From a virus, in IMG/VR virus record IMGVR_UViG_3300031963_000306, positions 1 to 43,313 of that record: 43,313 bases of DNA, one strand, 5' to 3'. The translations under genes and the position numbers were made by a program. Below are positions 5,407 to 40,868 of the stretch, one piece after another. Position 1 is the first letter of the stretch. Each line of letters starts with the position of its first letter. A model generated the notes under the pieces. That model worked only from the letters and a program-made list of their open reading frames with translations. It did no database searches and was not told the origin of the DNA.

Positions 5407-5409
5407 ACC

Positions 5410-23743: not shown

Positions 23744-23962
23744 TTACCAATCTGTTTGCGTTCTCTTTTGCATCTTGCGAGCATCTCTGATCTGTCTTCG
23801 CTTAGATTCTTGTCTTTTTAATATTCTTTTCTTGGAGGGAGTCACATAAAACTCCCGTCTCTTAACTTCATTTACAATATCATTTTTTTTAACTATCTTA
23901 GAAAAGTGCTTTAGTGCGCGTTCAAAGTCATCCTTTGAATCCCCCTTTACTTCAACATACAT
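23744..23962 (-). CDS. rpsU: Ribosomal protein bS21 homolog encoded by phage
   Basis: This 72-aa protein is the length of E. coli bS21 (71 aa) and follows its pattern: an N-terminal strand (MYVEVKGDSKDDFERALKHF), a helix with basic residues, the signature 'VKRREFYVTPSKKR' (E. coli has EVRRREFYEKP), and a long Lys/Arg-rich C-terminal helix. bS21 binds the 30S platform near the anti-Shine-Dalgarno end of 16S rRNA and takes part in initiation. Other phages, including pelagiphages and huge phages, are known to encode bS21. Here it lies inside the head-gene cluster, between a DUF3008-like gene and the scaffold, with an AGGAG site. Replacing host bS21 to favour phage mRNA is an inference. Confidence 0.92.
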   Translation of the reverse strand: MYVEVKGDSKDDFERALKHFSKIVKKNDIVNEVKRREFYVTPSKKRILKRQESKRRQIRDARKMQKRTQTDW

Positions 23963-24413: not shown

Positions 24414-24716
24414 TTATTTCTTTTTCTTAGTTGCGTTTATTTTTTTAGCAGTGTTTTTAGCTACACGCTTTGTCTTAACCGCTACTTCCTTTACATCCTT
24501 CAAGTTAACTTTACCATCTTTATTGACATCTAATGCAGTTTTGGCATCGGATGCGTTAACTTTACCATCGTTATTTACATCAGCAGCGGAATGAATTGAA
24601 GCTTCTGCTTTCTTTGCAGTCGATGATAATTTGTCCTTTACAGATACGTTCATATCACGTAAAACATACCACACAATTCCTACGACGATAGCGGCTATTA
24701 ATACAAATCCTAACAT
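24414..24716 (-). CDS. Membrane-anchored protein with EF-hand/dockerin-like calcium loops
   Basis: This 100-aa protein has one N-terminal membrane helix (LGFVLIAAIVVGIVWYVL, residues 2-19), a Lys/Ala-rich linker, two consecutive calcium-loop motifs of DxNxDGxVNxxD type ([12 protein letters not shown] and DVNKDGKVNLKD, about residues 46-74), and a Lys-rich tail (KKINATKKKK). Paired loops of this form are the hallmark of dockerin type I and EF-hands. The N-terminal helix could be an uncleaved anchor. It sits between protease and DUF3008-like genes, with an AGGAG site. Why a head cluster carries it is unknown, and a virion or lysis-timing role would be speculation. Confidence 0.75.
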   Translation of the reverse strand: MLGFVLIAAIVVGIVWYVLRDMNVSVKDKLSSTAKKAEASIHSAADVNNDGKVNASDAKTALDVNKDGKVNLKDVKEVAVKTKRVAKNTAKKINATKKKK

Positions 24717-24725
24717 ATAAATCTC

Positions 24726-25313
24726 CTATTTAACTTCCGATAAAAAGTCATAAATTAAAGTATCGATTTTAGAATATGGCGTTATAATCTTTTGTTCAGT
24801 GTTTTCATTTATAAACGCACCCTGTGTGGATGGGTTAGAAACGATATCAAAACAAATTAAATTGAAATCTTCCTGAACTTCTAATGTATTTTCACCAACA
24901 CTCTGAACAGAACCCATTCCTCTTGACGAAACACCAAGACGTATATTATTTTTGATTAGCTCTCTAACTATATTACCTGCTGGAGTAGATAGAATTTCGA
25001 TGTTACCCACTACGTCTTGATTTTCTGTCCACATATCCACCACGTTACAACATACATTTTTAAGATTGACCACTGGACTTTCTGGATGATCTAATTCACC
25101 AAGTGCTCTGCGTTGCGAAACAAAATTATCTTTATATGCTTTTGCTTCTCGCATTAAAATTTCCCGTGGATAAACTCTACCATTTTGATTCTTAGTATCT
25201 GCACGTTGTAAAACTACATGCTTCAACAATAATGGCTTTGTTATATCCGCAGCTTCATTCAATAATTGCGGTGAATATTGAATTACATTGTATTCTACTA
25301 GTAAATTTTTCAT
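24726..25313 (-). CDS. 21: Prohead maturation protease (T4 gp21-like, peptidase S80 type)
   Basis: This 195-aa serine protease is close in size to T4 gp21 (212 aa). Family motifs are 'NQNGRVYPREILMREAKAY', the catalytic His segment 'GELDHPESP' (about residue 96), and the Ser segment 'RLGVSSRGMGSV' (about residues 125-136, Ser at about 128-129). The protease cuts scaffold, capsid and internal proteins after (I/L)-x-E. Its own N-terminus has two such sites (LLVE at residue 7 and LLNE at residue 20), as expected for an auto-processed enzyme. The ATG is 1 nt after the preceding stop, without a good ribosome site. It lies upstream of scaffold and capsid, as in T4. Confidence 0.93.
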   Translation of the reverse strand: MKNLLVEYNVIQYSPQLLNEAADITKPLLLKHVVLQRADTKNQNGRVYPREILMREAKAYKDNFVSQRRALGELDHPESPVVNLKNVCCNVVDMWTENQDVVGNIEILSTPAGNIVRELIKNNIRLGVSSRGMGSVQSVGENTLEVQEDFNLICFDIVSNPSTQGAFINENTEQKIITPYSKIDTLIYDFLSEVK

Positions 25314-25314
25314 A

Positions 25315-25815
25315 TTAATTACGAATCTCCCGTATTTGTTGGGCTAATCCTATTAGCTTTGCTTCTAGTTTAACCAAGCCAGTCAAAGTACGCTTCCACA
25401 TCTTAGAACTATCAATTTTATATTCGTTTTTTAAACGAGCATTCATCTTAATTAACTTTTGTATTTCAGTTAACTGTCTATTGATTTCTGATATAGCATT
25501 TCCCAATTTTTGATGTGGTTGTTTACTAGTATCATTTCGATATGCATAATATCGATTTTCTTCTAATGGATTTAATTTATTCTTTACGATTTCCATTTTA
25601 TCGGCAGGTGCACTCATTTGCTTCTTGCCAATTGGTGTCAATTCATATCCAAATTGCGTTGCTATTTTCTTTAGTCTGGCAACATTTTTTTCAGAATTTC
25701 CACGGAACGCAGCCGGTGTTAAATATCCTGCTACATTTCCAGTAGTGGACATTTCATTTAAAATTCTTTTAATTTCTTCTCGCAAATATTGCCGTAAAAT
25801 TTCTTCTTCATTCAT
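25315..25815 (-). CDS. Unknown head-region protein with N-terminal (I/L)xE helix
   Basis: About 166 aa. The ATG at 25815 is chosen over an upstream GTG at 25824 because GAGGAA lies 11 nt before the ATG but only 2 nt before the GTG. The protein begins MNEEEILRQYLREEIKRILNE, an amphipathic helix ending in L-N-E, then 'MSTTGNVAGYLTPAAFRG', a motif I associate with small proteins of T4-like phages. The rest is basic and helical. It lies between the portal-side gene and the protease. The N-terminal helix resembles a capsid-targeting sequence. Possible internal head protein; no known function. Confidence 0.72.
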   Translation of the reverse strand: MNEEEILRQYLREEIKRILNEMSTTGNVAGYLTPAAFRGNSEKNVARLKKIATQFGYELTPIGKKQMSAPADKMEIVKNKLNPLEENRYYAYRNDTSKQPHQKLGNAISEINRQLTEIQKLIKMNARLKNEYKIDSSKMWKRTLTGLVKLEAKLIGLAQQIREIRN

Positions 25816-25816
25816 A

Positions 25817-26692
25817 TTAATCACATTTCCTCATCTCATGCACAATTTGATATGCAATCAACATAGCGGTTACATGGTTTTCTTTTATAACAGAAATATT
25901 CTTAATTTTACGTAATTGTGAAATAACTTCTTGTAATTTAATCTTGGTAACTTCATTTTTAATATTTGGTAATTTTAATGAAATTTCCTTTATAACAGAA
26001 GTTGCTTCGGATAGAATATAATTTTTTATAGTGCTCGAATTGGAAACGTTGTAGATATATTCTCTTAACAGTTTCTTTTGTTGTTCTGTTAGATTGGTAT
26101 ATCTTTCGTTGAAGTTTTTCAATAACATACTGTATGATAACAATCGTAAATCTTCTTCTTGCTTTCTGACCAACTCCATAATTGCATTTTCTTGTTGAAC
26201 TTGCTTTTGTGTAGTCTGTCCTGTTAAGTGCTCTACGATTGTAAACTTAGAATTTACAATATCTTCAATATTATCGAATGCCAGCGATTCATTTGTTGCG
26301 GCGTCAAATACTTTGTAAATACTTGCATAAATTTTATATGACGGAATTCTTACTGCTAAGAAATCTTTTAAATTATAATGTTCTTTTAATTCCTTGATAA
26401 AAAGATATTTTTGTGTATTCAGCATTCTTTCATTCAATTTTTTTCTTTGCTCTGCTACTAATCGCAAAAATTCAAATGACTTTTGCTCACTTAATTGTTG
26501 AGTATTAAAAAATGCTCTATACAAAATTAATTCTTTCCCCAATTCTGTTTTTGAAGAAAAGTGCTCTCGCAATAACTTTTCAGCGATGCTGAAATCTTTC
26601 TTTTCCATAACATCATTGGTGATCTGACGAGCTAATAATTCAAATAGTATGCCCGTATTTCTTAGCTTATTGTGTCTGTAAGAATCTTTCAT
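25817..26692 (-). CDS. Unknown helical protein between portal and protease
   Basis: This 291-aa, highly charged helical protein starts MKDSYRHNKLRNTGILFELL. It is rich in Lys, Glu, Leu and Ile, with long heptad-like stretches (LRLVAEQRKKLNERMLNTQK; TEQQKKLLREYIYNVSNS) and no membrane segment or catalytic motif. A similar RHNKLRNTG start is, as far as I recall, common in proteins next to the portal in uncultured T4-like phages. A prohead core or portal-assembly function is plausible from position and composition but unproven. Its candidate promoter box is 29 nt ahead of the ATG. Confidence 0.75.
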   Translation of the reverse strand: MKDSYRHNKLRNTGILFELLARQITNDVMEKKDFSIAEKLLREHFSSKTELGKELILYRAFFNTQQLSEQKSFEFLRLVAEQRKKLNERMLNTQKYLFIKELKEHYNLKDFLAVRIPSYKIYASIYKVFDAATNESLAFDNIEDIVNSKFTIVEHLTGQTTQKQVQQENAIMELVRKQEEDLRLLSYSMLLKNFNERYTNLTEQQKKLLREYIYNVSNSSTIKNYILSEATSVIKEISLKLPNIKNEVTKIKLQEVISQLRKIKNISVIKENHVTAMLIAYQIVHEMRKCD

Positions 26693-26720
26693 ATAAAATT
26701 TGCTCTGTGTGTAAGTACAA

Positions 26721-26728
26721 TATAAATA
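26721..26728 (-). promoter_or_regulatory. Candidate promoter box upstream of the protease/head gene run
   Basis: The plus strand reads TATAAATA in the 87-nt gap after the portal gene, 29 nt ahead of the ATG at 26692. It is one of the clearest members of the recurrent box. Confidence 0.4.
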
Positions 26729-26779
26729 CTTAATACTTTCATAACCCCTCTATATTAAATATATAACTTCTATTTCAAG

Positions 26780-28672
26780 TTATGATTTATCCAGATCTTC
26801 GGTCAAAATTTGCGCGACGGAATTGGCTATAGTTATATCTTCCAACTCTTTAGCTAATATTTTAACCAATGATTTTTTGTGTTTTATATTTCGTTCATCG
26901 CCTCTGCTTGCAAATGCCGATTTCTTTCCCAGCGGATCTCTTCCGAATGGATGCGAATCTTTTGAATATTTCAGCCCTTCACGTGGTCTTCCCACTCGAC
27001 GGGCTTCTTCTATTTCTTCATCTTCATCATCAGTTTCTAACAAATCCAGTTCAGTTAACGCTTCTCCCAATTCATCGCCGGAAGAAGTATCATCTAATTC
27101 CTTTTCTGCAGATTGTAATTCATCTTCTTCGGAACTTTGTTGCTCCGGTTCAGTTTCTGCCTGTGGCTCTGCTATATCGGCTTGATTATCGACGGATACA
27201 GGCGGCTGAGATATTTGCGTTTCTATTCTCTTCAATTCTGCCTTTCTTCGAATATCCGATTCTATTGCCGTTCTTTCATTTGAAATTTCTTCATCGGTCA
27301 TTTCAAAGATGTTTTTGTATACCCATTCTTCCGAAATTAACTTAGAATTTACTAAATTATCCGCCAATCCAATCTTTTCATTCCAAAGACTGATTTTTTC
27401 TTGCTCATAAATCATTGATGGAGAAGAAATAGTTAACTCAAAATCGATCAAATCTTCATCTCTAAATCCTTGGACATATAAATGAATGATTGCGATCTTA
27501 GTTAATTCAGAAATCATAATACGCTGAATGCGTTCAATTGTTCTGGCGAATCTCACATCTTGTGAGGCTAATGTGGCTTTTCCGCTTAAGTCTTCTTCGT
27601 ATCCAATGAATGACTTAGGTACTTTAAATGCCGCCATTAATTTTTTGCGGAGGTATTCAATGTCTTCTATAGCATTGAACGAGAGACCTTGCATGGTTTG
27701 AATATCGGTGCCGCTATCTCTACCACGTACCGGTAGATAAAAATCTTCCGTAATATTCATCATATTATAACGCAAATTATAATCGCCGGTTCTTGGATCA
27801 ACCAATGGTGTCTTTTTCATTTTTTCAATGATTCTAGACATGAATTGATCAACTTCTGCCGGTGGAATATTTCCAACGTCTATCAAAAATTTGCGCTTGT
27901 CTGGTGCTCTCATAATACGATGGATTAACATCGCATCTTCCATAAGCTGCAATTGCTTCCAAACACGGCGACCACCTTCAATCATCGCCTTGCCATAAGG
28001 AAGGAAATTAGTATCTGCCAATAGACGAAAATGTGCCACTTCAAAATTTTCTAGTTCGTCTTTACCTAAGTTCAAAAAATCATTTTGTAATTTAAATTTT
28101 ACACCGAACGGATTTGCCGGATCTTCGCCTTCAATTCTAACCGTTTCGTATACAGAAAGTGGCACTACATTAACGATTCCGTATTCTTGATCAATATCTA
28201 GATATAAAAAGAAATCTCCATATTTGACCATATTTCTGACCCAAGGCCATAAATTAAAATCAATATTTAAAATATCATAAAATAGATTATGTAAGATTTC
28301 TTTTACGTTATTATTTGAAGATTTGATACCTAGTATTTGCCCAAATTCATCTTTGATGGTACTTTCGTCTGCGTAAATATCTAATACGGATGAAATAATA
28401 GCATCCGCATCCATCATATCATAGTCTCTGAACAGTTGCAATCTGGAACCTTGGAACGCAGCGGCATGTTCATATCTTCCATTGACAGATCCGTATCCTC
28501 CAGATCCACCAGAAGTATGAACTCTACTATATCTGTCAACTCCTCTTCGATTTACAAATGATTGAATATTGTCGGTATCAGCTACTCTTAGCTTCTTACC
28601 ACCAATATTTCTAACAATTGTATTTGTAGAAAAGAGACGTTTTAATCTACCGTATACGCTGGTATCTACCAT
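26780..28672 (-). CDS. 20: Portal protein (T4 gp20-like)
   Basis: This 630-aa protein is the dodecameric DNA gate of the head. Typical parts are 'DADAIISSVLDIYADES' near the N-terminus, 'WPWVRNMVKYGDFFLYLDID', 'RAPDKRKFLIDVGNIPPAEVDQFM', 'GRDSGTDIQTMQGL', and 'KLMAAFKVPKSFIGYEEDLSGKATLASQDVRFAR', all conserved in gp20. T4 gp20 is 524 aa. The extra length is a C-terminal tail with a strongly acidic stretch (about residues 500-570) followed by the basic 'RRVGRPREGLKYSKDSHPFGRDPLG'. The CGGAGG site before the ATG is among the strongest here. Confidence 0.95.
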   Translation of the reverse strand: MVDTSVYGRLKRLFSTNTIVRNIGGKKLRVADTDNIQSFVNRRGVDRYSRVHTSGGSGGYGSVNGRYEHAAAFQGSRLQLFRDYDMMDADAIISSVLDIYADESTIKDEFGQILGIKSSNNNVKEILHNLFYDILNIDFNLWPWVRNMVKYGDFFLYLDIDQEYGIVNVVPLSVYETVRIEGEDPANPFGVKFKLQNDFLNLGKDELENFEVAHFRLLADTNFLPYGKAMIEGGRRVWKQLQLMEDAMLIHRIMRAPDKRKFLIDVGNIPPAEVDQFMSRIIEKMKKTPLVDPRTGDYNLRYNMMNITEDFYLPVRGRDSGTDIQTMQGLSFNAIEDIEYLRKKLMAAFKVPKSFIGYEEDLSGKATLASQDVRFARTIERIQRIMISELTKIAIIHLYVQGFRDEDLIDFELTISSPSMIYEQEKISLWNEKIGLADNLVNSKLISEEWVYKNIFEMTDEEISNERTAIESDIRRKAELKRIETQISQPPVSVDNQADIAEPQAETEPEQQSSEEDELQSAEKELDDTSSGDELGEALTELDLLETDDEDEEIEEARRVGRPREGLKYSKDSHPFGRDPLGKKSAFASRGDERNIKHKKSLVKILAKELEDITIANSVAQILTEDLDKS

Positions 28673-28690
28673 GATTCCTCCGATATCCTA

Positions 28691-29041
28691 TTATTTTATA
28701 GTATAAATGTCGTCCAATGCTTTTACTAATTGTTCAATTGCAACATTCAAATTTTGATCTTTTTTCTGTTGCCATTCAACCAGTTTCAGTTTAAGACCGT
28801 TCACAGGATTGTCTAAATTAAATAATACATCCATATGAAACGCATTTCTATTAAAAATAGAATATGGCATGGAATTGATAACATCCACGCCTTGCAAAAA
28901 CCTAGTAAACAGCAACATCAAATCTGCCTGTTCTTTGTCATTCAACATAGGTAGAAGCTTTTGTACAGCGACTTCCACTTTAGTTGTAGTGATTTTATTT
29001 TCTATCGATTCCGACAATAAAATGTCATGCAATTTAATCAT
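28691..29041 (-). CDS. Small unknown protein with N-terminal (I/L)xE segment
   Basis: This 116-aa protein starts MIKLHDILLSESIENKITTT. It overlaps the stop of the gene upstream by 4 nt (ATGA), with GGAGAG before the ATG. The first 11 residues form a hydrophobic/amphipathic segment ending L-S-E, a candidate gp21-type cleavage site. The remainder is helical with 'KLLPMLNDKEQADLMLLFTRFL' and no recognisable domain. It lies directly before the portal gene. I do not recognise the family. Packaging in the head as an internal protein is inferred. Confidence 0.7.
   Translation of the reverse strand: MIKLHDILLSESIENKITTTKVEVAVQKLLPMLNDKEQADLMLLFTRFLQGVDVINSMPYSIFNRNAFHMDVLFNLDNPVNGLKLKLVEWQQKKDQNLNVAIEQLVKALDDIYTIK
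28702..28708 (-). promoter_or_regulatory. Candidate promoter box ahead of the portal gene
   Basis: The plus strand reads TATAAAT, 30 nt ahead of the portal ATG. It lies inside the last codons of the preceding small gene, so coding constraint may explain it. Confidence 0.25.
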
Positions 29042-29322
29042 TTTTTTCTCTCCACATACTTCTTTAAAAGCGTATAATAATTCGGAACTTCTTTTAGATG
29101 TGCTGCGGCAATCATAGCAGTCTTTGATAAACTACCATCTGTTACATCTTGATGTTCCAATTCTACATTCATTCCAATATAAAATTGTTGGAAATCAAAA
29201 TCATACCCCATATAATCATATATCCGCTTTACTTCTTCCTTACTGATATAAGTATCCCCACTTACATATGGAGTGTCTTTTTTGGGGACATCTTCTGATA
29301 ATATATGAGATAAAAGAATCAT
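29038..29322 (-). CDS. DUF5661-like small protein
   Basis: The start is set at the ATG at 29322, just after the upstream stop, giving 94 aa. A longer frame would overlap the preceding gene by over 100 nt. The protein starts MILLSHILSEDVPKKD and carries 'MGYDFDFQQFYIGMNVELEHQDV' and 'AAHLKEVPNYYTLLKKY'. This is the pattern of DUF5661, in which a Glu-His pair and a later HL.E.P.YY.L are conserved. The function of that family is unknown to me. The first 10 residues end L-S-E. It shares an ATGA overlap with the next gene. Confidence 0.75.
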   Translation of the reverse strand: MILLSHILSEDVPKKDTPYVSGDTYISKEEVKRIYDYMGYDFDFQQFYIGMNVELEHQDVTDGSLSKTAMIAAAHLKEVPNYYTLLKKYVERKK

Positions 29323-29329
29323 AATTAGG

Positions 29330-29746
29330 TTACCATTTACGGCACGACCAGTAACGTGCCTTAGTTCTTGGTCCTGGATTTGCACAATTATGTCTTGCAC
29401 GAAATGATTTACGACGAGCAGGAATAGATTTCTTAATTCGCATTTTCTTGTCGCCAAAATTTACTTTTTTAATGTTACCTGTCTTTGGGTCTTTTACGAA
29501 TACTTTAAATTTCTTTACATCGCCTCGCATAGGCTTACCCAAAGCAACTTTACGACCATGATATTCCGCTTCTTCCAATGGTTTTTTATTTGCTCGTATC
29601 ATTTCTACGGCAAGACATTGTGGACAGAACTCGTCGATTATATCTTCTTCATTGATGGGAACGCAATTTGGGACCATTCTACCATCCAATTCTTTCATAC
29701 CAACTTGTCTATATCCTTCCCAACAGGCTTCATTTAAGTTTTCCAT
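29330..29746 (-). CDS. Conserved basic phage protein with Cys/His cluster
   Basis: The start at 29746 (MENLNEACWEGYRQVG, 138 aa) lies 1 nt after the preceding stop. The N-terminal part has 'CWEGYRQVGMKELDGRMVPNC' and then 'CPQC'. The C-terminal half is very basic, with 'KKFKVFVKDPKTGNIKKVNFGD' and 'ARRKSFRARHNCANPGPRTKARYWSCRKW'. That C-terminal block recurs in T4-like phage proteins, sometimes linked to head genes. Conserved Cys and His suggest metal binding. The first six residues end L-N-E, fitting a protease site. Function unknown, and nucleic-acid binding is suggested by charge only. Confidence 0.8.
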   Translation of the reverse strand: MENLNEACWEGYRQVGMKELDGRMVPNCVPINEEDIIDEFCPQCLAVEMIRANKKPLEEAEYHGRKVALGKPMRGDVKKFKVFVKDPKTGNIKKVNFGDKKMRIKKSIPARRKSFRARHNCANPGPRTKARYWSCRKW

Positions 29747-29747
29747 A

Positions 29748-30068
29748 TTACTTTTCCTTTTTCTTAAATGTGGATACCATTGTTGGCTTTCCACCTGGAT
29801 TTCCTGCTTTTCTTTTACGAGTAACTGCCGATCTCTTTTCGCCTTTGCTCATCGCAGCGGCTGATCTAGCCGGACGGCACTTTGGATATTTTGCGGAACC
29901 ACCTTTTCGTTCCTTTTTTCCAGCAGATGCTCCGCATGGAGGATGCTTGCCAGTTTTAGAATCTTTTCTGGAAATATCAACCCATTTTTGCTTCAACCAC
30001 TTACCCAATTCACCTTTTGGTTTATATTTCTCATCCAATTCCAATATTATATCAACTAATTTGATCAT
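29748..30068 (-). CDS. Small basic conserved phage protein with N-terminal (I/L)xE
   Basis: The ATG at 30068 overlaps the upstream stop by 4 nt (ATGA), giving 106 aa starting MIKLVDIILELDEKYKPKG. The hydrophobic N-terminus ends in I-L-E and then L-D-E. The body contains 'GKWLKQKWVDISRKDSKTGKHPPCG', 'YPKCRPARSAAAMSKGEKRSAVTRKRK' and a Lys-rich tail. It resembles short basic viral proteins grouped around DUF5872, but I am not certain of the family. Two conserved Cys are visible. The strong positive charge suggests association with DNA inside the head. Confidence 0.75.
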   Translation of the reverse strand: MIKLVDIILELDEKYKPKGELGKWLKQKWVDISRKDSKTGKHPPCGASAGKKERKGGSAKYPKCRPARSAAAMSKGEKRSAVTRKRKAGNPGGKPTMVSTFKKKEK

Positions 30069-30277
30069 TTTTTTCTCTTTTTCCATCCACCACCCATACT
30101 CTTATATTTCTTAGCTGCCCAGAGATTGGCATATGCGGATGGATATACTTTAAATTTAGCACGAGCAGCGGCTTTGGCTCGTGCCCATTTAGCAGGATTA
30201 GTTGGAGTATTTTTTTCAACCAAAGCCGTAAGTTTATGTTCTAATAAAACATCTCGAAAAAAATCTAAATATTTCAT
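30065..30277 (-). CDS. Very small basic protein with KAAARAKFKVYPSAYANLWA motif
   Basis: This 70-aa protein starts MKYLDFFRDVLLEHKLTALVE and ends in MGGGWKKRKK. The core 'WARAKAAARAKFKVYPSAYANLWAAKKYKSMGGGW' is a motif I recognise from many phage-encoded small proteins of unknown function. The N-terminal segment is amphipathic and ends in L-L-E (residue 13). The ATG lies 1 nt after the upstream stop, and the 3' end overlaps the next start by 4 nt, so expression is coupled. Inferred to be a packaged basic protein. Confidence 0.78.
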   Translation of the reverse strand: MKYLDFFRDVLLEHKLTALVEKNTPTNPAKWARAKAAARAKFKVYPSAYANLWAAKKYKSMGGGWKKRKK

Positions 30278-30278
30278 A

Positions 30279-30644
30279 TTACTTTAAAAACTTCAATTTA
30301 TAAAGTGTTGAATTAATTAGTCCTGCAACTTCATCTACAATATTGTTAAGTTCGCCATCTTGTGGTAATTCTGTACGAATTTTATCCACGAATGAAGATA
30401 GTCCTGTAAAATACATTACTACTTTATCAGGAGTTTCTATAATTTGCGAAGAAATGTTATATCCAGTTAAAATTTCATATCTTCCTTGGAATGTTTCAAC
30501 GTATGAATCAATTAAATCAACAATACCATCGTAATATTCATTTAACGCTTTGTGGGCGGCAAATGAAGTAGTCTGTAAATGAAAAATATGAGATTGATTT
30601 CTACTACTCATCAAGGTAGATATAAACTTAGCTACGGCTTCCAT
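30279..30644 (-). CDS. DUF5856-like (ferritin-like helical) protein
   Basis: The start at 30644 (MEAVAKFISTLMSSRNQSHI, 121 aa) lies 1 nt after the previous stop, and a longer frame would overlap it by 40 nt. The helical pattern with 'HIFHLQTTSFAAHKALNEYYDGIVDLIDSYVETFQG' resembles DUF5856, a Dps/ferritin-like phage family. Candidate metal ligands are the two His, the His in AAHKAL and nearby acidic residues. No diiron or ferroxidase site can be confirmed. The gene sits in the small-gene run between terminase and portal. A protective or nucleoid-like role is speculative. Confidence 0.72.
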   Translation of the reverse strand: MEAVAKFISTLMSSRNQSHIFHLQTTSFAAHKALNEYYDGIVDLIDSYVETFQGRYEILTGYNISSQIIETPDKVVMYFTGLSSFVDKIRTELPQDGELNNIVDEVAGLINSTLYKLKFLK

Positions 30645-30645
30645 A

Positions 30646-31326
30646 TTACTTTCCCATAGGGTTGTCGGCAGGAGCACCTGCACCATTTCCTACGGTTGCC
30701 GACTTGGACTTTTCATATTGCATACTATTATAAACCGCATTAATATAATCTGCGGCTTGTGTAATCTTTGATTGTACCCAACCTTCCAATTCTTCGTTGT
30801 CACCAAGCATATTATATAATTCACCAGCTTGCTTATGTAATGCCAATAAATCAGATTTTGCCATAGGTCCTTCTGAATCATCTACAACTTCTTCTTCTTC
30901 GAGTGATTCTTTTTGCATTTTGTTGGCGATTGTGTCTCTGCGATTTTTTAAATACTTGTCAGTAGAATCAACCTTGCCGTCGTTGTTTACATCAGCATCT
31001 TCCTTACCAACTGCATCTAATTCTTCGTAGGTTAAGCCTATTCTTTCTTCGATTGCATCAATTTTTGCAATCTGCTCTTCCGTTAATTCAAATTCTTCTC
31101 TTAATTTACGAAGTGTCATAGCCAAACGTGCTCGCTTGCCCAATTTACCCTTTGCTTTCGCGGCTTTTTCTAACTTAGCTACAGGAATTTTTTCTCCAGA
31201 AGGAACTTTTAATGATTTATGTAAAGCTCCTGGCTTTTGAACTGCCTGCTGTATCCACTTTTCTTCTGCTTCTTTAGTTAAGGGCGTAACTGCAGGCAGT
31301 GTTATCAATCCCATCAATTTAATCAT
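30646..31326 (-). CDS. Unknown basic protein with one EF-hand/dockerin-like loop
   Basis: This 226-aa protein starts [20 protein letters not shown], then '[34 protein letters not shown]', a motif common in small phage proteins ('[16 protein letters not shown]'). At about residues 112-124 it has the calcium loop [13 protein letters not shown], very like those in the membrane protein at 24414-24716. The C-terminal third is acidic then helical and ends [16 protein letters not shown] lies ahead of the ATG. The KPGALHKSL motif may bind nucleic acid, but I know of no tested function. Confidence 0.75.
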
Positions 31327-31349
31327 ACTATATCTCCAGAATGTAAATA

Positions 31350-32426
31350 TTATTCTTTAGGTTTCTTTGGTCTTGCTGATATTGGATTTGCGGAACGAGT
31401 AGCAGATCCACCATATTTTTTAATAGCAATATCACTTGCAGCTGCCCATACGAAACTTTTCCATGCAGAAGCAGGCCATCCAAATCTAACTGCGCGTCTC
31501 TTGAATTTTTCTTTTACTCTATTCATTCGATTATTCGCGGCTTTTCTTTTCTTAGCACTCCAGTTTCTCATAGCTTTGCTACGACCTGCTAATGGTAATG
31601 GTTTGCCATCATTATCCTTTCCACCGCCTAACATTTCCTTTCCAATTCGTTCTCGTTCTGCCTTTGCACGAGGTGACATTTTTCTGCCATGAATATAAGG
31701 AACAGTAGGTCCTTTATCTGATTTGCCACCACCTTGACCGGCTTCGCGTTCTCTTTCCTTTGCTTTTTTAGCACTGCCTCTATGTGGCTCTTTCTTTTTT
31801 GGAGCAGCCGGTGGCGCTTCTTTCTTTCCCTTTTTACCTTTTTGTGGTGCGGCTGTCTTCGGCTCTGCTTTTTTAGTGGCAGGTTCTGATTTTGGTTCCG
31901 CTTTTGTAGGGGTAGCTGGAGCAGCAGCCTTGGGCTTTGGCTTTTCTGGTGTTTTTTGTGGCGTGGCGGCACGGGCGCGAATTGCTGCTCCCGATCCACT
32001 AGGCTCTTTTCTTGGTGGTTCTGGTGTCGCTGCGCGTACCGAAAATCCAGCTTTTTCTACATCATCTGGAGATACGTCTAACGCTCGTGCAAATCTACCC
32101 GCAATCGATGGGTCTGTCTCTCTTCCCTTAAATAATGCCTGTAATATGTCATCTCGCTTATCTGTTTTCAAATCTGCTTTTAACGAATCTATACCACCTT
32201 CTTCGGCGGCTTTCTTTTGCAGATCTTTAAATGTCATGGCTTCCGACAATACAGATAAATCCCTCTTTAATAATACTTTCAAAAGATCCCGCTTAACATT
32301 GGCGTCAAAAATGCCAATAGATTCAAAGAATTCATTATATTCTTTGGTATGTTCTTTTAAAACCTCAGTTATGACTATAGATTTTAATTCTTCTTTAACT
32401 AACTTCTTTATTTTGCTATCACTCAT
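31350..32426 (-). CDS. Lys/Ala/Pro-rich basic protein next to the terminase
   Basis: The ATG at 32426 has GGAG 10 nt ahead; an upstream in-frame TTG at 32441 overlaps that site and is rejected. About 358 aa. The N-terminus is helical ([21 protein letters not shown], ending I-T-E). The middle (residues about 145-215) is low-complexity with repeated KAEPK, ATPTK and PAAPKKK. The C-terminal part is basic and contains '[20 protein letters not shown]' and '[29 protein letters not shown]'. The composition resembles histone-like tails and DNA-condensing proteins. It directly follows the terminase gene. An internal head or DNA-organising role is inferred. Confidence 0.72.
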
Positions 32427-32474
32427 ACAAAAAATCTCCAAAATATTGGATTAAGCAGGAATACTACTTTATAC

Positions 32475-32482
32475 TATAAATA
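32475..32482 (-). promoter_or_regulatory. Candidate promoter box after the terminase
   Basis: The plus strand reads TATAAATA, 49 nt ahead of the ATG at 32426. It lies within a short inverted repeat (ATACTA at 32471-32476 and TAGTAT at 32481-32486) in the 61-nt gap after the terminase gene. Confidence 0.35.
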
Positions 32483-32487
32483 GTATA

Positions 32488-34080
32488 CTATCCTAACAAC
32501 CATCGAATATCTTCGACTGAATCTCCTACTTGCATCTGATAACTATCTTCCTTTCTATCCCTCGAAGTAAGGGGCATATAGCTACTATACGTCAAGTCTA
32601 AGCTCTTCTTTGTTAATTCTATTTGTTCCTGACGCAATCTCAGCGCCGTATCTCTTACCCATAGCCCTATGCACAACGACATAACCAAATCGTCGTTATA
32701 TCCTGACAGCGATTCGGCTCTACCATTCTTCCAAATAAACGTTTCTAACTCAGTTATAGTTCTGATTGAACGAATTATAAAGGAATTATCTCTCATATAT
32801 TCGTCCAACTTAGAAATAATCAACGGTCTGGTTCTGGCGGATATGCTAAACCCAGGAACCATAGACTTTTCTTCCCTATAATATCTGTTTGTATGTTGAT
32901 GTGCTACATCTACTACCTGTAAGTCTTTTGACATATAAAATAAATTTTTATATTGTCTATCTATTACTTGTTGTATTGAGGTATGCCCAATAGAACTGTT
33001 ATCGCAGATCAGTAGGGCATCGTTATACATAGTTGCCGTAGCCACCATCAAATTACCAAACTCTTTTGGAGTTAATTTTCCTTTATACTCTGCTACTTGT
33101 GTGGATTTTTCTATGTCGATTATATGAAATGCCGAATAATCTTCCCCATCGCCTCTAGCTACGTCACCTGCTAGCACATAACTTCGGTTTGCTTCTGGGT
33201 ATTCCCATATCCACAGATTATTGTCAAATCCTTGCTTGGATTTTGGTTCTTCTAAGTAGGTATTTCTATAAAATTCAATTATTTCTGGTTTAATTACTGT
33301 ATTACCAGAGAAAATAAAACTTGCATCATGCTCTTGTGCTGCTTGAGCTTCGCCTAGAATTTCTGTTTGTCTATCTCTCCATGCCTGATCTCTTTCAGGA
33401 TGAACTTTCCAATCTAATAGTATTGGATTAAAGTTATTACTTCCTTCTTGGGCGTGTAACCACATCTTATGGAAGAAATTACCCACGCCATTTGGAGTAG
33501 ATAATAGAATTGCCTTACCACCAGTAGATAATGTTGATGATGCGGCGGTCCAAATTACTTCTGCATCATCAATGAATGCAGCTTCGTCTAGAATTAACAG
33601 AGAAAGTGCTTCTGATCGACCAGCATCCTTACTGCGAGCAACCGCTTTAATCTGCGACCCATTAGAAAACTGTAATGATAGTTTATTATCAGTTGTACAG
33701 TTCCCACGAAGCCATACTGGGAGATTGGAATGCATATATCTAACTTTAGTTACTAGATTTTTTGCAGTTTCTTGCTTCGTAGCGATTACTAATATGTTTT
33801 TATCTTCATGAAATAGTAGTAACCACAACGCATATCCGGCTACTAGTGTAGAAATACCAATCTGGCGACCCTTCAATACTATGTTGTAGTCCTTTTCTTC
33901 AAACTGCGAGATAGAATCTTTTTGATAATCGTATAAATTAAATAATAGCTTGCCTTTGATAGGATGCTGGATATAACAATACTTTGTTAAGAAGTATGCC
34001 GGGCTTATTATGCACTTTTTATACTCTTGCTTAATTATTTCCCGCAAATTATCAGATGAATTTTTCGTAACCGCTGACAT
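32488..34080 (-). CDS. terL: Terminase large subunit (T4 gp17-like)
   Basis: This 530-aa packaging motor has both expected domains. The ATPase has a deviant Walker A 'VLKGRQIGIST' (about residues 68-78), Walker B 'LLILDEAAFI' (about 166-175) and coupling motif 'LLSTPNGVGNFF'. The RNase H-like nuclease has acidic residues in 'LAGDVARGDGEDYSAFHI', 'LLICDNSSIGHTS' and 'GYNDDLVMSLCIGLW'. It cuts concatemeric DNA and drives it through the portal. T4 gp17 is 610 aa. The ATG is 3 nt after the upstream stop and has a weak ribosome site. No small terminase gene is recognised in the window. Confidence 0.95.
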   Translation of the reverse strand: MSAVTKNSSDNLREIIKQEYKKCIISPAYFLTKYCYIQHPIKGKLLFNLYDYQKDSISQFEEKDYNIVLKGRQIGISTLVAGYALWLLLFHEDKNILVIATKQETAKNLVTKVRYMHSNLPVWLRGNCTTDNKLSLQFSNGSQIKAVARSKDAGRSEALSLLILDEAAFIDDAEVIWTAASSTLSTGGKAILLSTPNGVGNFFHKMWLHAQEGSNNFNPILLDWKVHPERDQAWRDRQTEILGEAQAAQEHDASFIFSGNTVIKPEIIEFYRNTYLEEPKSKQGFDNNLWIWEYPEANRSYVLAGDVARGDGEDYSAFHIIDIEKSTQVAEYKGKLTPKEFGNLMVATATMYNDALLICDNSSIGHTSIQQVIDRQYKNLFYMSKDLQVVDVAHQHTNRYYREEKSMVPGFSISARTRPLIISKLDEYMRDNSFIIRSIRTITELETFIWKNGRAESLSGYNDDLVMSLCIGLWVRDTALRLRQEQIELTKKSLDLTYSSYMPLTSRDRKEDSYQMQVGDSVEDIRWLLG

Positions 34081-34083
34081 ATA

Positions 34084-34779
34084 TTATCTTCTTAATTGAG
34101 ATGCTAATATTGCTCCACTAGCAAATGATACCACCGCAACTACTGTTCTGCTTGGCTTCGGTAATAATCCAAACAAAAACTTATCTGGATTCTTTGGTGT
34201 CGTTGGTAATGCTTGTAATACTTTTGTGAGACTATCTGCTCTGGTCTCGGATAATAATAGCGCAGAATTTAAATTTACAATCTTTTCATTTTGTAATTTT
34301 ACTACAGATTCTTGTTGAACAATCACAGAATCGGCAGTTTCTACTTGCGCCTTTAAGTTTACGATAGCAGAATCTTTCAATACCAACAGTGTTGCCGTAT
34401 CTGCATTGGCTACCGATGAATCTATTCTATTTTCTAAACTAGCAAGTGAATTTCTAAGCTGCGCTCGTTCCTTGTTTTTAAACGAGATAGAAATTGTTAA
34501 AGTTTTAATTGTAGAATCCTTCTTTGTATTTTGATCTCGCAGAGAATTAACTTCTGTTTTCAATGAATCGCTATATTTAATTGCATTCTGCGAAGTTCGT
34601 TGATATTCTTCATATTTAGCTTGAAACTCCGCAAACTCATTTTTACTGTTTGACTTCCCAAACATATATGAAATTAAAAATATAGCCACTCCAATCACCG
34701 CATATTTTCCAATTGCGGTTAATTTATCGAATCCTGCGCCAAATTTTAATAAAGATTCTAATATTTTCATTTTATACAT
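34084..34779 (-). CDS. Membrane protein with periplasm-sized coiled coil, possible spanin
   Basis: This 231-aa protein has a membrane helix near the N-terminus (KYAVIGVAIFLISYMFG, about residues 26-42), a long coiled coil (about residues 48-185, with heptads in 'LKTEVNSLRDQNTKKDSTIKTLT' and 'AQVETADSVIVQQESVVKLQNEKI'), and a second hydrophobic segment near the C-terminus (TVVAVVSFASGAILASQL). An ATG at 34770 is an alternative start. The layout recalls a unimolecular or inner-membrane spanin for lysis, or a structural tether. No lipobox is visible. It overlaps the upstream stop by 8 nt. Confidence 0.7.
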   Translation of the reverse strand: MYKMKILESLLKFGAGFDKLTAIGKYAVIGVAIFLISYMFGKSNSKNEFAEFQAKYEEYQRTSQNAIKYSDSLKTEVNSLRDQNTKKDSTIKTLTISISFKNKERAQLRNSLASLENRIDSSVANADTATLLVLKDSAIVNLKAQVETADSVIVQQESVVKLQNEKIVNLNSALLLSETRADSLTKVLQALPTTPKNPDKFLFGLLPKPSRTVVAVVSFASGAILASQLRR

Positions 34780-35335
34780 CCACTTCGGCTAACGCCGCAT
34801 ATAGTTTATCAATATCCTCTTGTATATCTGCTCGCAACTTATTAACATCTACGTTCCACTTCTCAATCATTAAAATTTTCTCTTCATCGGCGTGTACAAT
34901 CTCCGGAGCCGATACTGTATCTCGTAAATGTTCCAATTCTTGAAGCTTATCTTTCAACGTAGCTATGTAATTTGCTTTTACTTTACTCTCTTCGTATTCT
35001 TTATATAAACCAAGTCTCTTTAACTCGGTTTCTTCTGCCGTTACACATTCCATACACTTACCACGGATACCCCAAAACTTAACATCAATTCTATGATTGA
35101 GAGGTTTACTGCATTGTGGGCACCACCAAGGTGTTTTTGCGTCATCTAACTTTGTAACGGATTGTTTAATTCCATTTTTTACAGTCCATTTACGACCAGC
35201 TTCTTCCCAAACGTCACCTTCTTTTCTATCAATATCGGTAGGACGCCACCCGACTACGATTCTGCTTTCTTCCTTATTAATTATTTCATTAATCTTTCTT
35301 CTTGCATCATTGATTTGATCATTCGAAGTAACCAT
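34772..35335 (-). CDS. Zinc-ribbon protein with helical C-terminus
   Basis: This 187-aa protein has two CxxC pairs, 'CPQC' and 'CMEC', 22 residues apart (about residues 72-97), forming a probable four-Cys zinc ribbon. The N-terminus (MVTSNDQINDARRKINEII) is helical, and the C-terminal half is a long coiled coil (ATLKDKLQELEHLRDTVS; DVNKLRADIQEDIDKLYAAL). Overlap with the upstream gene is 17 nt and with the downstream gene 8 nt, so it belongs to the same transcript as the terminase. Proteins of this shape next to a large terminase are common in big T4-like phages. A packaging adaptor, or even a small-terminase role, is possible but unsupported. Confidence 0.75.
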   Translation of the reverse strand: MVTSNDQINDARRKINEIINKEESRIVVGWRPTDIDRKEGDVWEEAGRKWTVKNGIKQSVTKLDDAKTPWWCPQCSKPLNHRIDVKFWGIRGKCMECVTAEETELKRLGLYKEYEESKVKANYIATLKDKLQELEHLRDTVSAPEIVHADEEKILMIEKWNVDVNKLRADIQEDIDKLYAALAEVDV

Positions 35336-37478
35336 ACTTGTTATATCCCTTTGATTGTGGTCGTTTATGTAAAATTGCGACAGATGGATCTCTAAATAAT
35401 GGAATTCCTTTAACGTTATTCTTTAACCATTCTCGTGCAGCATCATATGCAGGATGCCCAGGTCCATATCCTAATGCCGTTCTTAAATAAATAGGTTGCC
35501 CTGTCTTTGGATTGGTAATTCGTATCCCTTGTTTGAATAAATTTGCCAGAATTCCTTTCATTGAATTCTTGGCATTACCCTTTTTCTTTTTCTTATTGGT
35601 GGTTAATTCTGTAGAATCTCCTGCATCTTTAGGAACTAGTTGATCCAATCCACCAATTAATGATGAATCTTTAGAAAATACATAAAATTCACCATCGTAA
35701 TAGAAAACTATCTCATCAGTTTCTATTTCTACTGACTTTAAGCGTTTTAATTCTCGTTGGAGAGTTTCGTATACATCCTTTCCTTCTAGATATGCGTCAT
35801 TCAAGGCATCAACTGATTTTGAAACTTCTTGATTGATGATTTTCTTCTTATGTGGTATGCTGCCCACCAGTGTATTGTTTATTCTTTGCAATAATAATAC
35901 CGATCCCTTTAATATGACCGATTGTATATTTGACATACCATCGATTATATCTTGCTTTAACGCATCCTTTTCATATTTTTTAATGGCATCCTTCTTCTTA
36001 TCATCAAGAGTATCTAAATCAAACTCCTCTTTATCCACCCATCGATACAAGATATCATTTTTTTCTTGTTCTGTGAACTCTAGATCATTTTCATTTTCTA
36101 ATTTGATCAGTAATTCGTTGCATACTTGAACTAAATAATCTCTAAGTGTATCTTCCGATGTCAATTCATATTCGGATGCCAACTTTTCCATAGAAGCTGC
36201 CAATTTTTTTATTTGTGCTTCTAATTTGTATGTTTGCTCTTCGCTAAAATAGATATTATTAACTTTATTTGGATCTAATGCGTATTGATACTTTAGCATA
36301 TTACTAATAATAAACTTGCTGGCGTTTTCTAACGTAGCATCAGTTTTATAATCTTCGTTATATGACACCACATCTTTAAATACTACAAAATTTTTATTGC
36401 TTGGAGTTATATTATTTTCTGATGAAGTATATACATCGAATGAAATAAACTTCTTCCCGTTGTCAAACACCGATTTCATTGCGTCGGTGTTCCCTTCCGC
36501 TCGAATCATCTTCTCCAAATCTACTAATGTCTGGGCAATAGATGTTTTTAGATGCTTATCACCATCAAATGCATCGATATATTGCTTAGAAGATACTCCT
36601 GTCTTATCTACATCTGCCACATCACTCTTATTTTTAATTAATAATAGCTTTCCATTTTTTACAGTCATAGTAACGGTCTCACGCGATAGCTTATCCGTTA
36701 TCTTTGATCCCATTCCTAGCAATTCTCCAAGCCCTCTGCCTAATATCTTGATAACATCATCGAACGTAAGAGACAAATTTTTGAAAATGTGCGCGGTGAA
36801 TGTTAATTTCTTTACTGGCGTTGGCTTTTCTTTAGGAGCAGCGGCTGGTCGTGGCGCCTTCTGCTTCATCTTAGCCAACGCTTGTGCTTTGCGCTTCTGC
36901 ATATCCTTGGTATCTCTACCATGATCCTTTCTAGCTAGCTTCCAGTTACCATTCTTGGCACCATTTGGGTGATGCACATCGTGGTTTTTCATTTTGGATT
37001 TGCCATATTTCTTTACAGCCTTTCTACGATCACGGTTTCTAGCTGCTCTATCCTTTACAGTTTTACGCAAGTATTGCTTAACTTTCTTAGGATGGCGCTT
37101 ATAGTATCTACGAACCCGTTCAGTACTAGATTCTGCATCCGTTATAATTTCTTCGGTAGCCATACCAGAATCTCCACCTTCTGCGGAACCACTATCAGTT
37201 TCGCCAGATGAATTATCAGTGGTTGATGGTTCAGTATGCTTTGGAAACAACGTCATATACAATGGAATATGAAAATATCCAGTTTTTCTGGCATGCTTGC
37301 ACTTTTTCCGCATAGCTTTTGGGGAATCGGTATAACTAATGGTGCAATTTTTCTTTGATTCTTCATCTAACTCAGAAACTATTTCATTATGCTTGTCTAT
37401 CATCTGCATAATTGATATAGTTTTATTGAATGCATCATCATTTGAAGAATTGTTGGCTTCTAATATAGTAAATTTCAT
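35319..37478 (-). CDS. Large unknown protein with HNH-like segment
   Basis: About 719 aa from the ATG at 37478. An upstream GTG at 37487 is the only other in-frame choice and has no better ribosome site. It begins MKFTILEANNSS, ending I-L-E early. An acidic Ser/Glu-rich stretch (residues about 85-120) follows, then a very basic region with 'RRKAVKKYGKSKMKNHDVHHPNGAKNGNW' and a later 'KDHGRD'. The D-V-H-H, N and H spacing resembles an HNH nuclease core. The C-terminal two thirds have 'LLGMGSKITDKLSRETVTM' and charged helices, ending GYNKYGYFE. It could be an injected head protein or homing-type nuclease; family not recognised. Confidence 0.75.
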   Translation of the reverse strand: MKFTILEANNSSNDDAFNKTISIMQMIDKHNEIVSELDEESKKNCTISYTDSPKAMRKKCKHARKTGYFHIPLYMTLFPKHTEPSTTDNSSGETDSGSAEGGDSGMATEEIITDAESSTERVRRYYKRHPKKVKQYLRKTVKDRAARNRDRRKAVKKYGKSKMKNHDVHHPNGAKNGNWKLARKDHGRDTKDMQKRKAQALAKMKQKAPRPAAAPKEKPTPVKKLTFTAHIFKNLSLTFDDVIKILGRGLGELLGMGSKITDKLSRETVTMTVKNGKLLLIKNKSDVADVDKTGVSSKQYIDAFDGDKHLKTSIAQTLVDLEKMIRAEGNTDAMKSVFDNGKKFISFDVYTSSENNITPSNKNFVVFKDVVSYNEDYKTDATLENASKFIISNMLKYQYALDPNKVNNIYFSEEQTYKLEAQIKKLAASMEKLASEYELTSEDTLRDYLVQVCNELLIKLENENDLEFTEQEKNDILYRWVDKEEFDLDTLDDKKKDAIKKYEKDALKQDIIDGMSNIQSVILKGSVLLLQRINNTLVGSIPHKKKIINQEVSKSVDALNDAYLEGKDVYETLQRELKRLKSVEIETDEIVFYYDGEFYVFSKDSSLIGGLDQLVPKDAGDSTELTTNKKKKKGNAKNSMKGILANLFKQGIRITNPKTGQPIYLRTALGYGPGHPAYDAAREWLKNNVKGIPLFRDPSVAILHKRPQSKGYNKYGYFE

Positions 37479-40500: not shown

Positions 40501-40868
40501 TTCCAATTATCAGGAATAGATGCTCCATTGAGAAAATACCTAGCCTGCCCTAATAAAATTACTTTATATAATCCTGGCTTTGTATCATTGTATACTTCGA
40601 ATGATATTAATTTCGAGGCACCTTCTGTGTAATTTTGTATAGCCTGGTGATATATTGTTTGATTTTCAGAATTTACAACTTCGACCAAAACGCTAGAATT
40701 TGGCAATAGAAATGGTGTACCGGCGATTAGAAATCCATTCTTACCGCCGGTAAACACTTCTGGGAATTGTGATACTTTAAAATACTGTGAATTTTCGGAA
40801 GTATCTTCAATTAAAACGTCATATGTTACTAACTTTTGATTAAAAGATACTTTTCTTTGTCTTGGCAT
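37521..40868 (-). CDS. Virion structural protein with collagen-like segment
   Basis: This 1115-aa protein starts [21 protein letters not shown]. The first roughly 635 residues are a multi-domain beta region. Its '[26 protein letters not shown]' and '[19 protein letters not shown]' segments match, by memory, conserved structural proteins of marine T4-like phages. Residues about 640-800 are Gly-X-Y repeats. Then [19 protein letters not shown] is nearly identical to the 866-aa fiber, followed by a VGIGTTVP shaft motif, a carbohydrate-binding-like beta domain ([19 protein letters not shown]) and a second [21 protein letters not shown] lies before the ATG. It is probably a long tail fiber or whisker-type protein. 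Confidence 0.82.
38469..38952 (-). repeat. Collagen-like Gly-X-Y coding repeat
   Basis: About 160 residues of Gly-X-Y, mostly GPTGIQG with GTQGTTG and GAQGIQG variants. It is the shortest of the four collagen tracts and links the beta region to the tip. Limits are approximate. Confidence 0.88.

Follow-up and report, generated by a model that had tools for sequence, protein, structure and literature searches.

The DNA analyzed here is a 43,313-base record from a virus of bacteria (IMGVR_UViG_3300031963_000306), referred to below, over its full length, as the window. It is the part of a T4-like phage genome devoted to head and tail; the genes lie on the minus strand and encode fiber proteins with collagen-like repeats, tail tube and sheath proteins, the major capsid protein (MCP), an acidic scaffold-like protein, the prohead protease, the portal, and the terminase. 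The MCP, portal, and protease were matched to the Pfam families Gp23 (E = 1e-74), Portal_T4 (E = 1e-64), and Peptidase_S77 (E = 3e-25), respectively; the terminase, tube, sheath, and scaffold were named by us from sequence and gene order. Among named relatives, the protease ranked closest to those of Microcystis phage Mel-JY01 (52.9% identity) and Flavobacterium phage immuto (50.9%), and the portal is 100% identical to that of a 92,845-base contig (L002). The subject of this study is a series of genes between positions 24726 and 37478, many of which encode proteins beginning with a short segment that ends in (I/L)xE. In the original prediction, at least nine of these proteins were proposed to form a payload that is loaded into the prohead, matured by a gp21-like enzyme, and perhaps injected. 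The nine named there are listed here under their lower coordinates (the original prediction used start positions), with arrows marking the predicted cuts.

35319 to 37478, minus strand: 719-amino acid (aa) protein; leader MKFTILE↓A at 37458 to 37478; HNH-like segment NHDVHHPNG
31350 to 32426, minus strand: 358-aa, very basic, low-complexity protein; possible 21-residue leader ending ITE↓V at 32364 to 32426
30065 to 30277, minus strand: 70-aa basic protein; leader MKYLDFFRDVLLE at 30239 to 30277; second site, LVE, at residue 21
29748 to 30068, minus strand: 106-aa basic protein; leader MIKLVDIILE at 30039 to 30068; phrog_23735
29330 to 29746, minus strand: 138-aa two-module protein; leader MENLNE↓ACWEG at 29729 to 29746, then a CW-G module
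Junction 29570/29569, minus strand: inner site of 29330, LEE59↓AEYHGRK, preceding a basic domain that ends SCRKW
29038 to 29322, minus strand: 94-aa DUF5661 protein; leader MILLSHILSE at 29293 to 29322
28691 to 29041, minus strand: 116-aa helical protein; leader MIKLHDILLSE at 29009 to 29041
25315 to 25815, minus strand: 166-aa protein; N-terminal helix with LRE13 and LNE21 at 25753 to 25815
24726 to 25313, minus strand: prohead protease; Peptidase_S77 (PF03420, E = 3e-25), phrog_207; N-terminus MKNLLVE↓Y at 25293 to 25313

All nine N-terminal segments were found in the sequence at the starts originally given. Three of these starts lie within longer open reading frames (ORFs), namely, 30068 (gene 29748) within an ORF from 30086, 29746 (29330) within one from GTG 29794, and 29322 (29038) within one from TTG 29457; orthologue alignments back the shorter starts. 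With genes called by our own script trained on relatives, and with the terminase and portal omitted from the interval counts, (I/L)xE with its glutamate at residue 13 or earlier is present in 9/14 interval genes vs. 2/24 other window genes (p = 5e-4; this and the following p-values are too generous because the sequences are related); under a wider cut, with the glutamate at residue 24 or earlier, the counts are 12/14 and 5/24. One window ORF outside the interval (14560 to 14919), which the gene caller missed, has its first site at residue 20 by eye and would turn the controls into 2/25 and 6/25. The main cut again yields nine interval genes, but not the same nine: 34084 to 34770 (MKILE, a loose match) enters the set and 31350, with its glutamate at residue 21, leaves it. 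The two matches outside the interval are 40907 (MITE) and the MCP, a known type of gp21 substrate.

A search for the motif in related genomes (the window plus 79 related contigs) extends this pattern well beyond the window. With sequences dereplicated (60% identity over 30 residues) and contig-first genes excluded, 66/120 proteins (55%) encoded between terminase and portal carry the motif, compared with 19% after shuffling and 14.5% in inner windows of the proteins. The excess is smaller for genes between portal and MCP (24/71, 34%; shuffled 16%, inner 21%) and for those upstream of the terminase (9/33, 27%; shuffled 10%, inner 10%), and the motif occurs in 4/5 proteases, 3/3 MCPs, and 2/9 terminases and portals. 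Genes after the MCP show no excess (3/39, 8%; shuffled 11%, inner 8.5%), in line with the earlier remark that neck, sheath, and fiber proteins lack such segments.

Individual families, counted across the same relatives with the glutamate at residues 4 to 16, differ sharply. Nearly all members carry the motif in two families designated fam14 (40/41) and fam24 (20/20) and in the 29748 family (47/48), and it is frequent in the families of 28691 (60/72), the protease (57/59), 25315 (55/71), and the MCP (30/34). Carriage is partial in the families of 29330 (35/64), 30065 (26/45), and 35319 (10/20), and low in the portal (0/80), DUF5856 (2/54), S21 (2/48), and 30646 (7/49) families; neck and tail families stand at 0/25, 2/23, 7/25, and 5/9, and the sheath at 0/8. 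In immuto, the block before the terminase (102 to 119 kb) is enriched as well (12/20 vs. 32/188, p = 7e-5, with 1 kb of the record not covered), and its genes annotated as exonuclease and 5'-3' deoxyribonucleotidase have sites at residues 11 and 14. These counts confirm that the N-terminal (I/L)xE pattern in the interval is real and not a product of chance.

The parallel drawn in the original prediction with the cleavage consensus of T4 gp21 is borne out by the window leaders, which match the motif, and by the hydrophobic register of leaders across the lineage. All 10 known gp21 substrates of T4 (list from PMC5694885, gp21 itself from PMC9026906) have (I/L)xE with the glutamate at residues 4 to 24; of three other T4 head proteins compared, the portal and soc lack a site at these positions. 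T4 IPII and IPIII begin MKTYQEFIAE, and the IPIII leader is reported to depend on residues 4 and 7 for targeting and on residues 8 and 10 for processing (PMC9026906). In MIKLTDLITE, one of the leaders of the window's lineage, L4, L7, I8, and E10 correspond to Y4, F7, I8, and E10 of T4. In T4, exchange of the last leader residue from E to D is reported to prevent cutting while leaving loading intact. The register was examined in 238 dereplicated block proteins, of which 104 place the glutamate of a site at residues 8 to 13; position E-3 is hydrophobic in 71/104 of these vs. 19% of inner sites, position E-6 in 67/104 vs. 37%, and both together in 60/104 vs. 39/520 inner sites. The shortest leaders (MENLNE, MKFTILE, and MKNLLVE) have no room for the full register. 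As a side observation, T4 gene 61.1 (L090:18966-19130) starts MKTFKEFIKE, with the full targeting pattern, and may encode an unrecognized internal protein. The enzyme postulated to cut these sites is indeed encoded in the window: the protease belongs to the S77 family according to both Pfam and PHROGs and shares with T4 gp21 the aligned stretches GEL(D/N)HP and GVSSRG.

Leaders of the forms MIKLVDILLTE, MIRLRDLLKE, MIRLADILCE, and MIKLTDLITE precede bodies of different families and, judged from such alignments, behave like separate modules. The DUF5661 domain, a type named in the original prediction and identified in 29038, follows MILLSHILSE in the window and MKKSQLRQIIKE in immuto, where Pfam places it in one protein, and is leaderless in other relatives; tblastn of the DUF5661 protein against phage records gave no match. 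The bodies had been described as mostly basic or low-complexity. Taking more than +8 net charge per 100 residues as clearly basic, this holds for 5/9 (29748, 30065, 29330, 31350, and 25315) and not for 29038, 28691, and the protease. In 29748, a charge of +22 is spread across the 96 residues following the leader, and the body of 31350 has a net charge of +39; 31350 is the weakest case because no orthologue was found in the set of relatives. A DUF5872 match of 30065 falls below the family cut-off. For 28691, the predicted structural model (mean pLDDT 82.6) comprises a short leader helix, residues 10 to 14 with pLDDT below 50, and a confident helical body; the low-confidence joint at the predicted cut fits cleavage but does not prove it, and a fold search of the Protein Data Bank (PDB) gave no match below E = 0.001.

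The two-module protein 29330 allows leader presence to be compared with that of the protease. In its family, leaders of varying length end in LNE, INE, MTE, LCE, LYE, LTE, or LEE before (A/D/S/V)CW(E/D)G, and a minority have KGPCWKG-like forms with the nearest glutamate further off. The basic domain (residues 60 to 138 of 29330, nicknamed SCRW) was followed in 160 loci, the best 80 from each of two scans. In the set near Roseobacter phage CRP-902, 78/80 loci yielded the domain, with a preceding (I/L/V)xE in 0/78, and the genes nearly always start M-A-x immediately before it; in the set near phage C48C1 (Kyanoviridae), it was located in 79/80 loci, with (I/L/V)xE 1 to 3 residues ahead in 77/79, in 42 different upstream contexts. 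These 157/160 loci came from a looser anchor pattern; a stricter one located the domain in 81/160 loci and gave 0/38 vs. 43/43, the sites being mostly ITE↓A, LQE↓A, and LTE↓A.

Peptidase S77 was sought in 49 of the 160 contigs. It was found in 0/24 CRP-902-like contigs tested, all of which hold the domain without the site, and in 3/25 C48C1-like contigs, the same three that have Portal_T4 and all with the site; the remaining 22 lack S77 and Portal_T4 and may be fragments. S77 was likewise not found in either of the complete genomes of CRP-902 and HTVC111P, in which the domain begins the gene directly, and is present in 9/9 T4-like records tested, including the window's own contig. Among all called genes, the N-terminal motif occurs in 83/857 (9.7%) of the CRP-902-like set, with no excess over inner windows (10.3%), and in 200/747 (26.8%) of the C48C1-like set vs. 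9.5% in inner windows. The full register is present in 5/857 and 57/747, respectively, and many of the latter proteins start like M-K-x-F-K-x-Y-(I/L)-x-E. In the genomes compared, the N-terminal site thus shows an association with a gp21-type protease.

The site before the basic domain is not confined to N-termini. By the strict pattern, 31/64 members of the 29330 family hold the domain, 28 of them with (I/L/V)xE at most three residues before it; of 18 unique forms of the inner junction, 17 keep (I/L/V)xE and the other has MME, with residues farther upstream varying. Relatives also encode three kinds of fusions (the L205 = L207 type, L222, and L242) in which ITE↓A or LQE↓A precedes the domain, downstream of an open frame of 278 to 1183 residues. 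Other fusions, detected by tblastn and otherwise by eye, join 30646-like and 23978-like modules (a protein of about 500 residues in ACG-2014f) and 30646-like and 29330-like modules (one of similar size in Bellamy), two modules per protein in these examples. The inner junctions and fused proteins suggest that cargo precursors may be cut at several places. Cyanophage proteins of about 500 residues (L094:2308-3804 and L093:2804-4408) fuse modules that are separate genes in the window, the types being EF-hand-like with SQQRLFG and EF-hand-like with CW-VGMK.

Published proteomics of a related cyanophage provides a view of finished virions. In S-CREM2, 52 virion proteins were detected by mass spectrometry (Table 3, PMC10665884). 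We scored all 219 annotated genes, keeping the protease, scaffold, and MCP apart (2/3 with the motif). With the glutamate at residue 13 or earlier, the motif is present in 7/15 detected nontail proteins, 2/34 detected tail or structural proteins (11 of them hypothetical proteins assigned to this class by gene position), and 15/167 undetected proteins (p = 5e-4 and 2e-3); three of the seven carriers (ORFs 17, 156, and 160) are unlike the T4 pattern. The strict pattern F..(F/Y)(L/I/M/F).E within the first 28 residues, one of three tried (the others gave 7/10 and 6/11), selects 6/219 genes, five of which were detected (p = 0.003): an SAM hydrolase, a Cas9-like nuclease, an APH-like kinase, a cytidylyltransferase, and ORF136. 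According to PMC10665884, the virion enzymes could be either packaged cargo or carry-over from purification. Packaging is favored, because six virion ORFs (6, 12, 13, 14, 136, and 154) carry a T4-like targeting pattern within the first 25 residues. In the Cas9-like nuclease (L263:7704-10313), detected in virions by others, FASFMAE↓A lies at residues 19 to 25. Beyond S-CREM2, the cytidylyltransferase T4-GC190 of S-SM1, which starts MKKFSAFLNE↓A, was found in virions (PMC3037559), as was an NMN adenylyltransferase (NMNAT; PMC9602691), and 14 virion proteins are recorded for S-CREM1 (PMC9964418). The available portions of PMC10665884 and PMC3037559 contain no mention of a targeting sequence, and the idea that targeting sequences enable T4-like phages to load a range of proteins has already been raised in a T4 review (PMC9026906).

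The N-terminal segments are very probably capsid-targeting sequences of the T4 kind, which would dock a protein and then be removed by the gp21-type protease. A short stretch with hydrophobic residues at E-6, E-3, and E-2 would let the leader anchor its protein to the scaffold core as the prohead grows, after which the protease would cut behind (I/L)xE and free the body inside the head. Leaders would serve as interchangeable modules before different bodies, some of them basic and suited to a place amid the DNA (29748, 30065, 29330, and 31350) and others not; 29330 would also be cut internally, ahead of its second domain; and the neighbors 25817 and 25315 would be core proteins broken down by the protease. 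Sequence comparison itself provides the motif, its register, the gene context, the swapping of leaders, the association with the protease, and the match with a relative's published proteomics, and strongly supports the proposed capsid targeting and gp21-type cutting. Docking, cutting, and retention in this phage are what we infer from these comparisons; entry into the host with the DNA would be a further inference. The original idea appears largely right, and the comparisons suggest that, in this virus and its relatives, a diverse set of proteins is packaged together with the DNA. The set as first drawn was too narrow, given the MCP, the inner site of 29330, and the enzymes in relatives. As a payload it needs trimming, since the protease is the enzyme itself and 25315 resembles a core protein; the rest remain candidates, among them the site-rich 28691.

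Several observations weigh against this interpretation, beyond the relatedness that flatters the p-values. The motif is present in just 21/65 members of the 29038 (DUF5661) family and in 29/45 of the terminase family, which is not known to be cargo; the bare motif is unspecific because the terminase scores so high. There is no excess in the head block of Mel-JY01, which has S77 (3/21 vs. 29/199), and the motif is at background in three stretches of S-SM1 (23/207) and in the first 50 kb of T4 (13/84 vs. 12% inner). T4 hoc, not a known substrate, has a site at residue 18. By eye, only 29748, 29038, and 30065 among the window leaders show the complete T4 register. The virion data come from the relative S-CREM2; there, 8/15 nontail virion proteins are without a site whose glutamate falls within the first 13 residues, and moving the 11 position-assigned hypothetical proteins to the nontail class reduces the enrichment to 7/26 (p = 0.015 vs. 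undetected).

The most serious alternative, although we consider it unlikely on balance, is that the leader proteins mostly belong to the scaffold core, like T4 gp67 and gp68, and are targeted and then destroyed, leaving no payload. The genes that bear on it, and the other assembly genes with such sites, are the following.

25817 to 26692, minus strand: 291-aa protein without a short leader; 15 (I/L)xE sites vs. 5.9 expected
22513 to 23616, minus strand: acidic scaffold-like protein, net charge -51; 11 (I/L)xE sites vs. 9.0 expected
20925 to 22487, minus strand: major capsid protein Gp23; FINE9 and LISE59↓N; predicted propeptide at 22311 to 22487

Both 25817 and 25315 are encoded between the portal and protease genes, the position of gp67 and gp68 in T4, and are rich in inner sites. 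The former has no site before residue 18 and its orthologues hold 4.2 sites per 100 residues vs. 2.0 expected; the latter, with further sites at residues 86, 110, 117, and 163, has 5 beyond residue 16 vs. 2.2 expected (3.4 vs. 1.3 per 100 residues in orthologues). Because of this combination of position and site excess, the two are probably core proteins degraded by the protease, and searches with Pfam and PHROGs gave no gp67 or gp68 sequence match for either. The orthologues of 28691 are similarly rich (5.2 vs. 2.2 sites per 100 aa), and this protein may be either payload or degradable core. Other site counts weigh against this alternative: 35319 has 2 inner sites vs. 6.6 expected, a deficit not seen in its orthologues (0.79 vs. 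0.86 per 100 residues); 29038 has one (0.6 expected); and 29748 has none, which says little because only 0.1 is expected. T4 IPII and IPIII have no site past the leader, and proteins of S-CREM2 with such leaders occur in finished virions.

The MCP site LISE59 aligns with site E65 of T4 gp23, which is cut at 65 to release a 65-residue propeptide. The scaffold C-terminus (22516-22545 region) reads RLQYLAGI, and a C-terminal RLQxLAGI also occurs in scaffold-like proteins encoded by relatives. With RMQKLAGIITE present in an immuto leader protein (record 111675), this may be a core-binding motif shared by scaffold and cargo.

Alternatively, the segments might stay uncut and serve as amphipathic helices for docking on a head protein, with (I/L)xE belonging to the helix. 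Some leaders, MTKDELLEIIREEL of fam14 for example, are helical types with many acidic residues and can yield (I/L)xE by composition, and shuffling alone produces it in 19% of cases; nevertheless, we regard this explanation as improbable, given that the I/L and E are kept while the middle residue varies, that the body begins directly after the glutamate, and that in the 29330 family the junctions LEE↓A, LQE↓A, and LGE↓A lie in the interior of the protein. Chance, or the coding bias of AT-rich genes beginning MIK or MKL, could draw on the 10 to 25% of N-termini (depending on class) that hold the bare motif after shuffling and on the 29/45 of the terminase family but is highly improbable in view of the inner-window, shuffled, post-capsid, and no-S77 controls and of the register test (60/104 leader vs. 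39/520 inner sites).

Returning to targeting leaders cut by the protease, a broader proposal, which we put forward tentatively, is that aquatic T4-like phages possess a lineage-wide cargo-loading code in which the protease also cuts multimodule precursors at (I/L)xE linkers, so that the leader would predict head cargo entering the host. If true, the leader alone would pick, among dozens to hundreds of unknowns, the proteins that travel in the head and enter early, the predicted riders including NMNAT-like enzymes, kinases, an SAM hydrolase, and a Cas9-like nuclease. The first proteins to act in an infection are the packaged ones, and in uncultured phages they are indistinguishable from other unknown genes; were the leader a reliable address tag beyond T-even phages, virion cargo could be listed from the genome sequence.

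The largest of the leader-bearing genes, 35319, had been called HNH-like. The HNH-like segment NHDVHHPNG is present, but the protein as a whole appears to be a shortened member of a large conserved family of ligase/nucleotidyltransferase type. CTP_transf_like was identified in one orthologue (E = 5e-6), and a profile of the family hits the NMN adenylyltransferase structure PDB 2qjt (E = 1e-5); this C-terminal nucleotidyltransferase domain is present in relatives and absent from the window copy. The ligase-like assignment rests on the aligned stretches EKLDGQN and FARNKG and an RNA_ligase match under the cut-off (E = 0.015) in an orthologue. The structural model of 35319 (mean pLDDT 59) had no PDB fold match below E = 0.001. 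A homing endonuclease island was set aside by eye, the single HNH-like segment lying inside a large conserved protein, and so were secretion signals, as the leaders end acidic and lack the usual signal form.

Other genes in the window include a DUF5856/phrog_858 protein (30279 to 30686), located between terminase and portal in relatives, with the motif in 2/54 members and, like T4 rI.-1, annotated as "starvation-inducible transcriptional regulator"; a homologue of ribosomal protein S21 encoded within the head block (23744 to 23962), from a family whose 48 members in relatives lie close to the scaffold gene; and a small head-block protein (24414 to 24716) with an N-terminal membrane-like stretch and dockerin/EF-hand-like repeats. 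Long collagen-like Gly-Pro-Thr repeats mark fiber-type genes at 2806 to 12564 and 37521 to 40868.

Among known systems, the closest parallel is offered by T4 IPI to IPIII and Alt, with which the window shares short N-terminal leaders ending in (I/L)xE, a gp21-type protease, and varied, partly basic bodies (PMC3012670, PMC9026906), together with, across its lineage, the hydrophobic E-6, E-3, and E-2 positions. The bodies had no match to IPI, IPII, or IPIII in Pfam or PHROGs. The leaders are mainly MIKLxDILLxE in the window's lineage and MKTYQEFIAE in T4; the leader genes are packed among terminase, portal, and protease, whereas T4 ipI to ipIII and alt lie elsewhere; and, unlike the T4 internal proteins, one body of the window's lineage has an inner site. 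Resemblance to gp67 and gp68 concerns 25817 and 25315, with their location between portal and protease and their many sites. Cyanophage virion proteins (T4-GC190, the SAM hydrolase, the kinase, and the Cas9-like nuclease) have an MKx(F/L)xxFLxE start or FASFMAE nearby, and 35319 orthologues share the CTP_transf_like domain with T4-GC190-type proteins; the window copy of 35319 lacks that domain, and its leader sequence differs. In the giant phages phiKZ and SPN3US, head proteins are also cut after glutamate, at (A/S)xE (PMC5694885, PMC9026906), but several of their propeptides exceed 100 residues. Judged by these comparisons, the window system would work like that of T4, differing from it in leader sequence, bodies, gene order, and predicted inner cutting.

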